64,000 nucleotides of DNA, from the NCBI GenBank assembly GCA_039545355.1, contig BCJJ01000019.1, positions 494,076 through 558,075 of the forward strand. The letters are read 5' to 3'. Positions 17,479 to 21,550 of the stretch are shown here, piece by piece. The position numbers were made by a program, and so were the translations under genes. The notes below the pieces were generated by a model, which had not been told where the DNA came from, searched no databases, and worked only from the letters and a program-made list of their open reading frames with translations. Source of the stretch: Trichosporon coremiiforme. Taxonomy: Eukaryota; Basidiomycota; Tremellomycetes; Trichosporonales; Trichosporonaceae. How positions within the stretch are numbered: position 1 is the stretch's first letter; every line of letters starts with the position of its first letter.

Positions 17479-20254
17479 TTACTTGCCGCAACGCTGCTCG
17501 ACGCGCTCCCACGCGTTTTGCGCGCCCTCCCACGCCTGCTCGTTGAGCACGCCCGCCTCGTCGCGAGACGGGAAGACGTTGCCGAGTTTTCTGAAGATGG
17601 CAAGCGGCGAGTTCTGGAGCAGGCTGCCGACGAAGGGGACGTAGAACGGCAGCGTCGGGGGATGGTGGTAAATCTCGGAGATGCGAAGGCACCAAGCGGG
17701 GAAGCCATGCAGTTCGGGCGCGGGGCGGGGGAGGAGGCCGCGGAAGAAGCCCGGCGGGGTCAGGTGGTGCACGATGACAAGGCTGGGGTCGCGGGGCAGG
17801 CCGAGCTCGGTCTTGATGTTGTTGTCGAGGAGGGACTCGGTTACGCTGTCGGGCGACACGCCGTCGGACGCGTACCGCTGCGTCAGGCGCGTGATGACCT
17901 CGCCCGCGCTGGGAGGGAGGAAGATGACGGAGACGGTCTTCGGCCCGCTCGCCGTGTTCACGTACACTGTCTCGAGGTCCGAGGACTCGCCCATGTCCGC
18001 CGTGCCGTCGGCGCGGATGCCGCGGACGGTGCGCAGCTCGAAGTCACCGTCGTCGCTTGAGGGTGGGGAAGGGGGGAGGCTGAGCAGACTTGCGCTGATC
18101 GCGGCGTGGTGGCGCACACCGTACCCCTCCCCGTCCCACACGGAAAGGACGGGGGTGCCCCAGTCCGCGGCCCATTGCACGGCGCGACGCACGCTCTCGA
18201 CGTAGCGCTCAGCGATCTCGCGCCGGTCGCCCTTGCCCGGAACCAGGATCAAGGCGACATGCTCGGGCGCCGGCTTCTCGAGCTCGGGGAGAGACGGAGG
18301 CGAGGACTGGAACAGGCGCAGCACGACCGAGGAGACAGTGAAGAGAACGTGCAGGGCGAGCAGGAACGGGAACATGCACCACTTGAACACCATGATGAGT
18401 GGCTGCAGAAGCGTGCTGATGACCGAGGGCTGCGAGCTCGTACTGCGCTTGCTGTCGACGCTCGCAGCGCTGCCGTGGTGGTGGTGGTTGTGCCCGTGGC
18501 GAGTCGAGGAAGCCGCTTCGCTGCGGGCGGCAGCGGGTGCGTCGCCCTTGATCGACGACGCATGCCTCCAGCTCGTCTCGAAGATGGTCTTCTGCGGCAG
18601 CTCGACGCGGAGCAGCCCCTCGTCAACAGGCTCAAGCTCAGGGAGTCCCTCGACGGCACCCTTGCGGATGGCAGCGGCGAGCTTGGCGCTGTCGCCGCCC
18701 GACTTCTTGAACACCGCTCCGGCAGCGACGATCGCGTCAGCGATCTCGCTCCACTCCGTCATCTTTCCCCCGCCGACGTCGCCGCACGCGAGCTTGCCGC
18801 CCGCCTGCGGGCCGAGGATGTAGTACCCCAAGACGGCGCGGACGAACGCCTCCTGCCGCGAGGTCAGAGGATGTTCGTACATCACCGTGTTCATCGCGGG
18901 GCAGAGGATGACTGGTGTGGTCTGGGGTGTGGCACGGAGGAGAGACGTCGCGAGCGAATCGCAAATGCCTCCGGCGAACTTGGCGAGCATGTCCGCGCTC
19001 GTCGGCACGACAACGATCAGGTCGGCCCACCGCCGCAGCTCGATGTGCAGGATCGGTTCCCCAATCTTCTTCCAGTCGGACCACTCGTCAGCGTCTGTCC
19101 ACACGTTCGTCCCGCTCTCTTGGACCTCGTGCTTGTCAAAGAAGTGCAGCGACGCCTGCGTCGCGACGACCTGCACCTCAACATTGGCAGCCTTCAGCTT
19201 GTCAACGATCAGCGGGATCTTGACGCTCGCGACCGAGCCGGAGCTTATCAGGACAACGCGAAACTTGCCGTCGCCGTCAGTGCGGTGCTCGGCAGCGACG
19301 AAGGGCGGGCGCGAGTGGCTCGTAGTCGGGGCGGCGCGGCTCGACGAGGAAGCAGTGCGGTTCGTAGTCCGAGAAGCCCGGCTTGCGGATGGACCGCTGC
19401 GGCGAGTAGGAACAGGGCTCATCAATTGCTCATCTTCGGGGTACTGGTGCTGCGAGATCGGGCCGATAACTTGCTCGTTCTGGGGGTTGTGCGGGTCAGC
19501 CGCCGCCTTCTGCGCAGCCTCGGCTTCCTTTTGCGCCTTCTCCAGCGCAGCATTCATAGCAGCGCCCTGCTCGTACATCTCGCGACGCATGCGGCTGCGG
19601 GGTGACTCTCCTCCGGCATCCGCCAAGGAAGGTGCCGGCGCCGCCGAGCCGAACAGGAGCCCGGGCGGAGGGCGGTCCGACTGCTTGGGCGCAGACGATG
19701 CCTGTGGCTGATTCTGCTGGAGGCGTAATCCCGAGGGCTCGACGTCCTTCTCGTCAACGTAGCGCGTGCCGCAGGAGACGCAGAGGCGGCGACCGTCAGC
19801 CTCGCCGTTGCGCCGCGGGTATCCGACGAGAGGAATGCCGGCGCATGCGGGGTCAGGGCAGTTCGTGCCGAGGAGGGAGTAGCCCTTGAGCATGAGCTCG
19901 CTGATTGCGTCGGCGGCCGCATCGGGGTCGGCACGGGCAACGGCAGCGTTGTGCGCTGGCGGCGTCGAGGGGCTCTGGGGCGTGAGAACGGCGGACGGTC
20001 GCTCGGGTTGTTGCTGCTGCTGGGCATGGTCGTCTGGCCGCCCATCGCATCCCGCACAGAACTGGATTGGCGCACGCCCCGCCGCCTGCGCCTGCCCCGC
20101 GGGCTCACGCATCAGCGGCGTGGACCGGCACTGGTCGCAGTGCAGGTCCGTCAGCGTCCAGCCCTTCAGCATGTACTCTCCCAGCTGTTTGTCAGCTCAG
20201 TTCAGGGTTTGATGAGCTTACGATCGCGGACGTGTTCTCGAGTTGTGAGGTCAT
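17479..20254 (-). CDS. Fusion: SSSCA1-type zinc ribbon + PPC decarboxylase + NUS1
   Basis: Two exons (20254-20222, 20184-17479) give 912 residues, of which the last 901 are one open frame. Residues about 10-155 hold two SSSCA1/ZNRD2-like units (LGEYMLKGWTL with CDQC/CAGC; LMLKGYSLLGTNC with CPDPAC/CVSC). Residues about 317-505 are a complete phosphopantothenoylcysteine decarboxylase (CoA synthesis): catalytic His in ILHIELRRWAD (391), PAMNTVMYEHP (about 440-450) and LACGDVGGGKM with the active-site Cys near 478. Residues about 601-635 are membrane-spanning. Residues 637-912 are a NUS1/NgBR-type cis-prenyltransferase subunit (dolichol synthesis) with FPAWCLRISEIY and the C-terminal RxG motif as QRCGK. 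The ATG at 20254 has the better context; 20272 is an in-frame alternative. Confidence 0.93.
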
Positions 20255-20573
20255 GTCGAGCGCGATGGGCATGGGAAAGGGAGGTGAAGAGGAAGGAAGG
20301 GGGAAGGTGTGGATGGTGCGTTTCTCGTTGTCAGCGGCTACGCGCCCAACTTTAGCTGCGTCATGAACCTTTGTAACCGGTTGCCCGATTTGGACAGGGG
20401 GTGGCAAATCGCGGCTCGTGGCACTCGGCCTGTCTTCCTCGCCGTTCGATCGGGTTCAAGACACACACAAGATGCATTCGGCCGTCCACACAGCAGCGTA
20501 ATGTACTCTACAACACTTTTGCACGCATTTGGGAGCACTCCGTTGTTGATTCGGCCTGGACCCATGTATGCTG

Positions 20574-21487
20574 TCACTCTCCCCGATGACGGGATTCTGT
20601 CGTCAGCATCACACCTCCACTGTGTCTCACATAGAGCGCCATGACATCGTTCGCCTTGTACAGCACCTCCGCGACGGTGTAGTACGCGATGAAGGCAGTG
20701 AATACGCCGACGTATCCCGAAGCCTTAACGATCGCGACCGTGTCGAGGAGGTACCCAATGCCGAGGAGGAGGTAGATGAGCGCGAGGCCGAAGACTGCTG
20801 TCAGCTAAGTCCTCAAGCAAGGCAGTTGGGGTGAGCCTACTCACACACGAGAAACAGCCCGACAGAGCACCGTACAGCACCCGTCGTCATGATGACCGTG
20901 AACACAAACCAGACCATCATGTATAGCCCTTGGGCTATGTTCAGCTCCTCGCGCGTCTCGTACGCGGCCATCATGCCAGAGGACGGCCTGGGGTCAGCTC
21001 GAAAATCAACGACTTATCAGCCCCTTGACCAGTGAGCCACAACGTCTACTGACCAGAACAGCAACCCGATACTCATCCAATATCCGCCATAGCTGCACGA
21101 CACAGTCAGGCCGAAACTGTTCCCTGTCGCCAGCTCGCAAACGCCGGAAACAAACTGCGCGAGCCCGCCGACGAAGAACGCCATGCCCGTCGCGATGTTG
21201 GGTTGCGATATGCCCCGGGTCTGCACATTTATCAGGGAAATTAGGAACATTGAGTTCGCAAAGGACACGAGACCGAGGGGAGACGGATTCGCGAATGATG
21301 GGCGGGCTGTGGTCAGGTGAGCTTCCAGACGTGGAACAGCAGGGAACAGGAATGGGAGGCTCACCTTGTGAGTGGCACAGACAGCCCGCTGGCTGGACTG
21401 TGACGGGAACGTGCACTGGAGCATGTTTATCGACGTCGTACGTGCTGGAGGACGATGGTATGAGATGTGAGGTGAGGAGCTCGGCAT
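20574..21487 (-). CDS. GPR1/FUN34/YaaH (AceTr) acetate transporter family
   Basis: A six-helix plasma-membrane transporter family moving acetate or succinate, or signalling them (Ato1-3, Gpr1). The family hallmark is seen as NPSPLGLVSFANSMFLISLINVQTRGI, with FVGGLAQFVSGVCELATGNSFG and SYGGYWMSIG. Later exons give QGLYMMVWFVFTVIM, GLALIYLLLGIGYLL and ASGYVGVFTAFIAYY. Introns are joined at GTCAGTAGACG..CCCCAG and GTGAGTAGGC..GACAGCAG. The MPSSSPH start keeps frame only if a further 44-nt intron (GTACGACG..CACAG) is removed from the first exon. The C-terminus is uncertain: reading through stops at 20574, while removing an intron-like 34-mer (GTGAGACACAG..GACGACAG) would extend it to about 20456. 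A TATA box precedes the start. Confidence 0.85.
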
Positions 21488-21550
21488 TGGTAACTCGAGG
21501 GGAATGTCTTGTCACTGTCCGTATTCTCTCGCTGTGAGCCGCCTCTGACC

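Follow-up and report, generated by a model that had tools for sequence, protein, structure and literature searches.

A gene of Trichosporon coremiiforme that joins zinc ribbons, a PPC decarboxylase and NUS1 in one frame: a probable bifunctional protein of Trichosporonales yeasts

Phosphopantothenoylcysteine (PPC) decarboxylase (PPCDC) has been described in fungi as a part of larger proteins. In Hal3 of Schizosaccharomyces pombe it is joined to thymidylate synthase, a precedent that the first-pass annotation of the present locus had named, and in UmHal3 of Ustilago maydis, the only functional PPCDC of that fungus and an essential one, it is combined with a VPS9-like region (PMC6695811). A review of Hal3 proteins gives Trichosporonaceae extension lengths in a table headed Saccharomycotina, and so perhaps means other fungi, and its accessible text does not name NUS1 (PMC9604783). 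We analyzed a 64,000-nucleotide stretch of T. coremiiforme DNA (contig BCJJ01000019.1; hereafter the window), on the minus strand of which a single gene encodes two zinc ribbons, a PPCDC domain and a domain of the NUS1 type. No description of a PPCDC-NUS1 fusion was found in the open-access literature searched; the first-pass annotation likewise knew of none.

We consider it highly probable, from sequence comparison, that this gene gives rise to one bifunctional protein of 98 kDa bound to the endoplasmic reticulum (ER) and common to Trichosporonales yeasts. Its second exon runs on the minus strand from 20184 to 17482, where the stop codon follows, and is open for 901 codons (Table 1). The length first reported for this frame was thus confirmed, but the span up to position 20254 is better read as two exons with a short intron of 37 nt between them, which would be removed by splicing. 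Gene models of Vanrija albida and Cutaneotrichosporon have MSSRLE..SA[IV]LG.YML in the start region of the first exon. There are two candidate start codons, ATG at 20254, which gives 912 amino acids and a predicted mass of 98.1 kDa, and an upstream in-frame ATG at 20272, which gives 918.

The N-terminal ribbons were recognized by Pfam as PF06677 (E 8.2e-21) in two stretches with four Cys ligands each, both of which also scored above the cut-off in the genome profile search. The flavoprotein domain PF02441 followed with an E value of 2.5e-28, and a PDB search with the PPCDC part returned 6eoa as the best match (E 4.5e-71), then 1qzu and then the Hal3 structures 1e20 and 1mvl. In the window's own record, P0001, ILHIEL begins at residue 382, PAMN at 433, LACGDVG at 469 and QRCGK at 901. 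The His, the Asn of PXMN and the Cys named as catalytic residues of PPCDC (PMC6695811) correspond to His384, Asn436 and Cys471, which are identical in 11 of 11 aligned records, so the catalytic motifs are intact, as had been read from the DNA alone.

The NUS1 part was more difficult to assign. It had no Pfam match, no PDB match when a single sequence was used, and only a sub-cut-off chance match in the NCBIfam search; a profile of the fused sequences alone was also weak against PDB (6jcn, E 0.056). A more diverse profile, A3, matched 6jcn with an E value of 3.1e-10 and 6w2l_B with 5.3e-9. The first fold model of this part was poor (pLDDT 54), yet its top PDB match was nonetheless yeast NUS1 (E 8.4e-4), and the predicted fold is cis-prenyltransferase-like. 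The NUS1 identity of the predicted domain is established by profile and modeled fold together, with the more diverse alignments settling it. In an alignment with Escherichia coli UPPS, itself a weak match (E 0.29), the Asp of MDGN stands opposite the Pro of VPGK; this Asp, which we take to be the catalytic residue of cis-prenyltransferase motif I, is lost in the NUS1 part. The C-terminal RxG motif reported in the first-pass annotation is present as RCG, with RRG in P0002-P0008, P0011, P0015 and the second copy of the gene described below, and RKG in the end piece P0016. The canonical RxG is absent from yeast Nus1 (PMC7573591).

The host genome (42.0 Mb in 134 contigs) holds a second copy of the fusion on another contig, C18, which is 91% identical and open throughout. 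Two 9.9-kb stretches surrounding the copies align without interruption over 8794 columns, with 82% identity (L021 1-8687 against L020 1205-9897), and the copies therefore share their neighbourhood. Two copies fit a hybrid Trichosporon with two subgenomes, and hybrid Trichosporon genomes have been described in a paper that also reports RNA-seq of T. coremiiforme, T. ovoides, T. asahii, T. faecale and T. inkin (PMC6642101). Coding differences between these homeologs number 57, 37 and 265 at codon positions 1, 2 and 3, respectively. The ratio of nonsynonymous to synonymous substitution rates (dN/dS) is 0.095 overall, 0.059 in PPCDC, 0.070 in NUS1, 0.105 in linker 1 (residues 166-295) and 0.313 in linker 2, showing purifying selection, and the only gap runs are three of 30, 3 and 21 nt, all multiples of three. 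The codon-position bias, the dN/dS values and the in-frame gaps are not expected of a non-coding joint. Together with the relatives, the homeolog excludes chance as the reason why three families lie in one frame.

Homologue searches, in which only candidates sharing most words were scored, returned 13 and 12 proteins. In the first set, P0002-P0011 (n=10) run from PPCDC into NUS1, P0012 and P0013 end within PPCDC, and P0014 is a VPS9 protein; in the second, P0015, P0018 and P0020-P0025 (n=8) cross the joint, P0016 is a NUS1 end alone, and P0017, P0019 and P0026 are standalone NUS1. Including the window's own, 19 of 19 joint-crossing records, selected as such, keep one open frame between the last PPCDC motif and the NUS1 core; they possibly come from fewer species, and P0020, P0021, P0022, P0024 and P0025 begin at the last PPCDC motif. 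Several records are gene pieces cut at introns, and P0012 with P0024, as well as P0013 with P0021, lie on contigs of equal length and may each be two pieces of one gene. P0001-P0008 contain every part in order, ribbons through RxG end (P0002-P0005 start inside the first ribbon), while P0009 and P0010 carry the ribbons and PPCDC but only the beginning of NUS1. The records that lack ribbons (P0011, P0015, P0018 and P0020-P0025) are truncated models or gene pieces.

Grouped by similarity, the records fall into Trichosporon, Vanrija and Cutaneotrichosporon types, and the same domain order, which the first-pass annotation had proposed to look for in relatives, was found in each of the three types. 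The named carriers are V. albida, V. humicola, Cutaneotrichosporon cavernicola, C. spelunceum and C. oleaginosum; V. albida and C. cavernicola belong to Trichosporonales, and Kwoniella, the source of the standalone NUS1 records P0017 and P0019, to Tremellales. By the records compared, the fusion appears to recur across Trichosporonales. The gene models of C. cavernicola and C. spelunceum strains were made with RNA-seq hints (PMC10568926), which indirectly backs single transcripts. In P0009, P0010, P0018 and P0020-P0023, the NUS1 sequence is lost at about one place, after VYVNT, VYVDT, VYVNS or VHVNT, which suggests an intron in these relatives that is absent from the window's gene.

The T. coremiiforme genome was searched exon by exon with only the best candidates scored, and the counts are lower bounds. 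The NUS1 region had matches at E up to 1 only in the two fused genes, and PF06677 exceeded its cut-off only there, with one further sub-cut-off match on contig C10 (E 0.84). This search gave no further PPCDC in which the catalytic His and Asn are both kept. The other PF02441 loci are a Hal3-like pair on contigs C2 and C4 (L003:1495-2265 (+) and L004:1108-1890 (-)), in which, by comparison of the matching exon alone, the catalytic His is replaced by Pro and PAMN by PSMP, and the Cys may be retained; this pair is a probable pseudo-enzyme paralogue. Outside the fusion, the search thus yielded no gene for NUS1, for the zinc ribbons or for a PPCDC with all catalytic residues, and the fused gene is therefore probably the genome's only source of NUS1 and its only full PPCDC. 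The cis-prenyltransferase family PF01255 was detected at one locus, C33:142661-143685, in four matching stretches that are probably exons. As NUS1 is kept in two copies, a homeologous copy of the partner gene may have disappeared.

In the mechanism that we propose, the PPCDC domain would trimerise and decarboxylate 4'-phosphopantothenoylcysteine for coenzyme A (CoA) synthesis, and the NUS1 domain would pair with the catalytic cis-prenyltransferase, the product of the PF01255 gene, whose active site the RxG tail would complete for the formation of dehydrodolichyl diphosphate. The membrane helix that comes with NUS1 would hold the fused PPCDC at the ER. For both globular domains to lie on the cytosolic side, as we favor, the helix would have to be monotopic or hairpin-like, or have a second helix as its partner; a second helix is counted in most Cutaneotrichosporon-type records. 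No metabolite is common to the two reactions, so channelling is unlikely; enforced co-expression and ER co-localisation would be the likely outcome, and fixed dosage a plausible one. The same lack of a shared intermediate also suits a reading that is compatible with the proposed mechanism and that we regard as quite possible though not favored, namely, that the fusion is real but near-neutral, PPCDC tolerating added domains and a gene boundary having been lost without gain in regulation or location. Thymidylate synthase and a VPS9-like region are fusion partners of PPCDC in other fungi, and UmHal3, although fused, remains functional and essential (PMC6695811). In our own matches, a VPS9 domain stands beside PPCDC in 23 of 47 large PPCDC proteins (P0014 and 22 of P0030-P0058); PF06677 was found in none of these 23, in which NUS1 was not looked for. 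Against neutrality, all three types of record preserve the domain order, and the one genome searched yielded no unfused copy, although retention by itself is no proof of benefit.

Several observations weigh against a single cytosol-facing chain with both activities. Just eight of the 19 joint-crossing records span the whole arrangement, with both ribbons and the RxG end, and linker 2 shares just 5-11% identity with three records from other genera, where linker 1 has 23-30%. In five of five Trichosporon-type records and in P0024 and P0025, a Met lies inside the hydrophobic segment at the same position, -38 relative to the NUS1 core, and in seven Cutaneotrichosporon-type records (P0007, P0008, P0011, P0015, P0020, P0021 and P0022) one lies at -66; translation from such an internal Met could give these a short NUS1 of its own. 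The low core moment of the membrane segment is like that of a true transmembrane helix, the structure model has one long helix and not a hairpin, and, if a single helix spans it, the membrane would separate PPCDC from NUS1.

The methionines bear on an unlikely alternative in which one locus yields two products, the long fusion being made while most working NUS1 comes from a shorter transcript, from an internal start near the hydrophobic segment or from proteolysis of linker 2, which is long as well as poorly conserved. Standalone Kwoniella NUS1 begins just before the same helix, and the human membrane segment is dispensable for yeast complementation (PMC7573591), so a shortened NUS1 could work. 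On the other side, the nearest Met in the Vanrija-type records P0006, P0018, P0010 and P0023 lies at -107 to -128 from the NUS1 core, and the only near Met of P0009 lies within the helix, at -28; these records thus have no close start for a NUS1 with the whole helix. Among the events that the first-pass annotation had named as contradicting a single chain, a stop or intron break between PPCDC and NUS1 was seen neither in the homeolog nor in the 19 records, and a sequencing error is unlikely, whereas an internal start is still conceivable in most lineages.

The membrane segment directly precedes the NUS1 domain, as expected of NUS1/NgBR. When a hydropathy cut-off was applied over the 135 residues leading up to the NUS1 core, every Trichosporon- and Vanrija-type record (n=10) gave one helix, and eight of nine Cutaneotrichosporon-type records gave two or three (P0024 gave one). 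The hydrophobic moment of the window's protein is 0.07-0.18 over the segment core (windows starting at 597-609) and reaches ~0.4 at the ends only. An amphipathic surface helix is not favored because of this low core moment, and the segment was modeled as one helix of 41 residues. In NgBR, a membrane helix lies at the N-terminus, and the C-terminal domain is in the cytosol (PMC7573591, PMC12102762). Since PPCDC precedes the helix, it would lie in the lumen if the helix spans the membrane once. Such a single span, with NUS1 in the cytosol and the ribbons and PPCDC in the ER lumen, or the reverse, would agree with the strongly hydrophobic character of the helix and with the model, but it would keep one domain away from its usual substrate, and we find it improbable: the PPCDC domain keeps its motifs under a dN/dS of 0.059, as expected of a working enzyme, the extra helices of Cutaneotrichosporon-type records could flip the side between genera, and the helix number of human NgBR is itself disputed, with three predicted (PMC5110245) versus at least one (PMC12102762). 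A re-entrant hairpin is preferred on logic, not data, and the tethering of CoA chemistry to the ER suggested in the first-pass annotation would work only with a monotopic, hairpin-like or paired helix. An assembly or annotation artefact that joined two neighbouring genes has next to no probability and was rejected on the sequence evidence, since, although the C-terminal third is without a Pfam match and the joint falls within a linker of low conservation, the homeolog on C18 keeps the same frame with gaps in multiples of three only, and all 19 records, chosen for crossing the joint, are open through it.

Table 1. Features of the fused gene, in window coordinates
Feature	Position	Strand	Basis or remark
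Exon 1, coding part (MTSQLENTSAI)	20222..20254	-	Start region also in homeolog L002
Predicted 37-nt intron, GTAAG...ACAG (GT-AG)	20185..20221	-	Sequence and relatives
First zinc ribbon, PF06677 (Cys20/Cys23/Cys47/Cys50)	20017..20184	-	Pfam, genome search, Cys positions
Second zinc ribbon, PF06677 (Cys113/Cys118/Cys139/Cys142)	19717..19908	-	Pfam, genome search, Cys positions
Linker 1, residues 161-295, poorly conserved	19312..19716	-	23-30% identity, dN/dS
PPC decarboxylase/Hal3 flavoprotein domain, residues 296-497	18706..19311	-	PF02441, PDB matches
PPCDC catalytic site His384	19045-19047	-	
PPCDC catalytic site PAMN	18889-18900	-	
PPCDC catalytic site Cys471	18784-18786	-	
Linker 2 (PPCDC to NUS1), residues 498-597, fast-evolving, in frame	18406..18705	-	
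Hydrophobic membrane segment, residues 598-631	18304..18405	-	Modeled as part of one long helix
NUS1 pseudo cis-prenyltransferase domain, residues 633-905	17482..18300	-	
RxG motif, R902-C903-G904	17485-17493	-	
Stop codon	17479-17481	-	

An adjoining frame at window positions 21017-21511 (-) belongs to the GPR1/FUN34/YaaH family (PF01184, E 1.7e-33). VPS9-PPCDC proteins, reported for Ustilaginales only (PMC6695811), were also observed in Exobasidium, Tilletiaria, Ceraceosorus and Parajaminaea, which we place in other orders. The Symbiodinium HAL3B protein P0055 and its relative P0054 have a PF01612 domain beside the PPCDC domain.

In the proposed single protein, two essential and unrelated pathways, those of CoA and of dolichol and N-glycosylation, appear fixed at a one-to-one dosage, in an order described as including opportunistic human pathogens and oil producers. 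The fusion offers a natural test of whether a step of CoA synthesis can run at the ER and, because the number of helices before NUS1 varies between record groups with the flanking domains conserved, of NUS1 topology. PPCDC is a trimer (PMC6695811), and human NUS1-DHDDS is a dimer of heterodimers (PMC7573591). By analogy, each chain might bridge threefold and twofold units into a membrane-bound cage or lattice on the ER that couples CoA and dolichol levels, with the ribbons recruiting quality control to unassembled chains; we offer this as a speculation that is rather unlikely to hold.

The closest solved PPCDC is PDB 6eoa, a chain of 325 residues that we take to be the Cryptococcus neoformans enzyme and for which no fusion is mentioned. 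Hal3-type regulators of Ppz1 have an acidic C-terminal tail and a BBxxxVTF motif (PMC9604783), whereas the C-terminus of the fusion is NUS1. The PF06677 ribbon is shared with human ZNRD2 (ZNRD2/SSSCA1), which has been shown to act as a HERC2/CCT adaptor, HERC2 being a ligase (PMC10501995), but the fusion has two ribbons, joined to enzyme domains. Human NgBR/NUS1 and yeast Nus1 are separate proteins, unlike the fusion. The standalone NUS1 of Kwoniella (P0017 and P0019, 36 and 38% identical) has the same hydrophobic segment and domain, ending in VEQRLGK/R, but starts just before the helix and carries neither PF02441 nor PF06677. Among the PPCDC fusions, S. pombe Hal3 likewise combines a PPCDC/Hal3 domain and an unrelated enzyme in one chain; compared by description, its partner is thymidylate synthase, placed after the PPCDC core, and the accessible text speaks of neither a zinc ribbon nor NUS1 (PMC6695811). 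UmHal3 and the other VPS9-PPCDC proteins are large PPCDC fusions too, but with VPS9 placed before PPCDC. To thymidylate synthase and VPS9, the partners of PPCDC described in the papers cited here, the T. coremiiforme gene adds NUS1 as a third.
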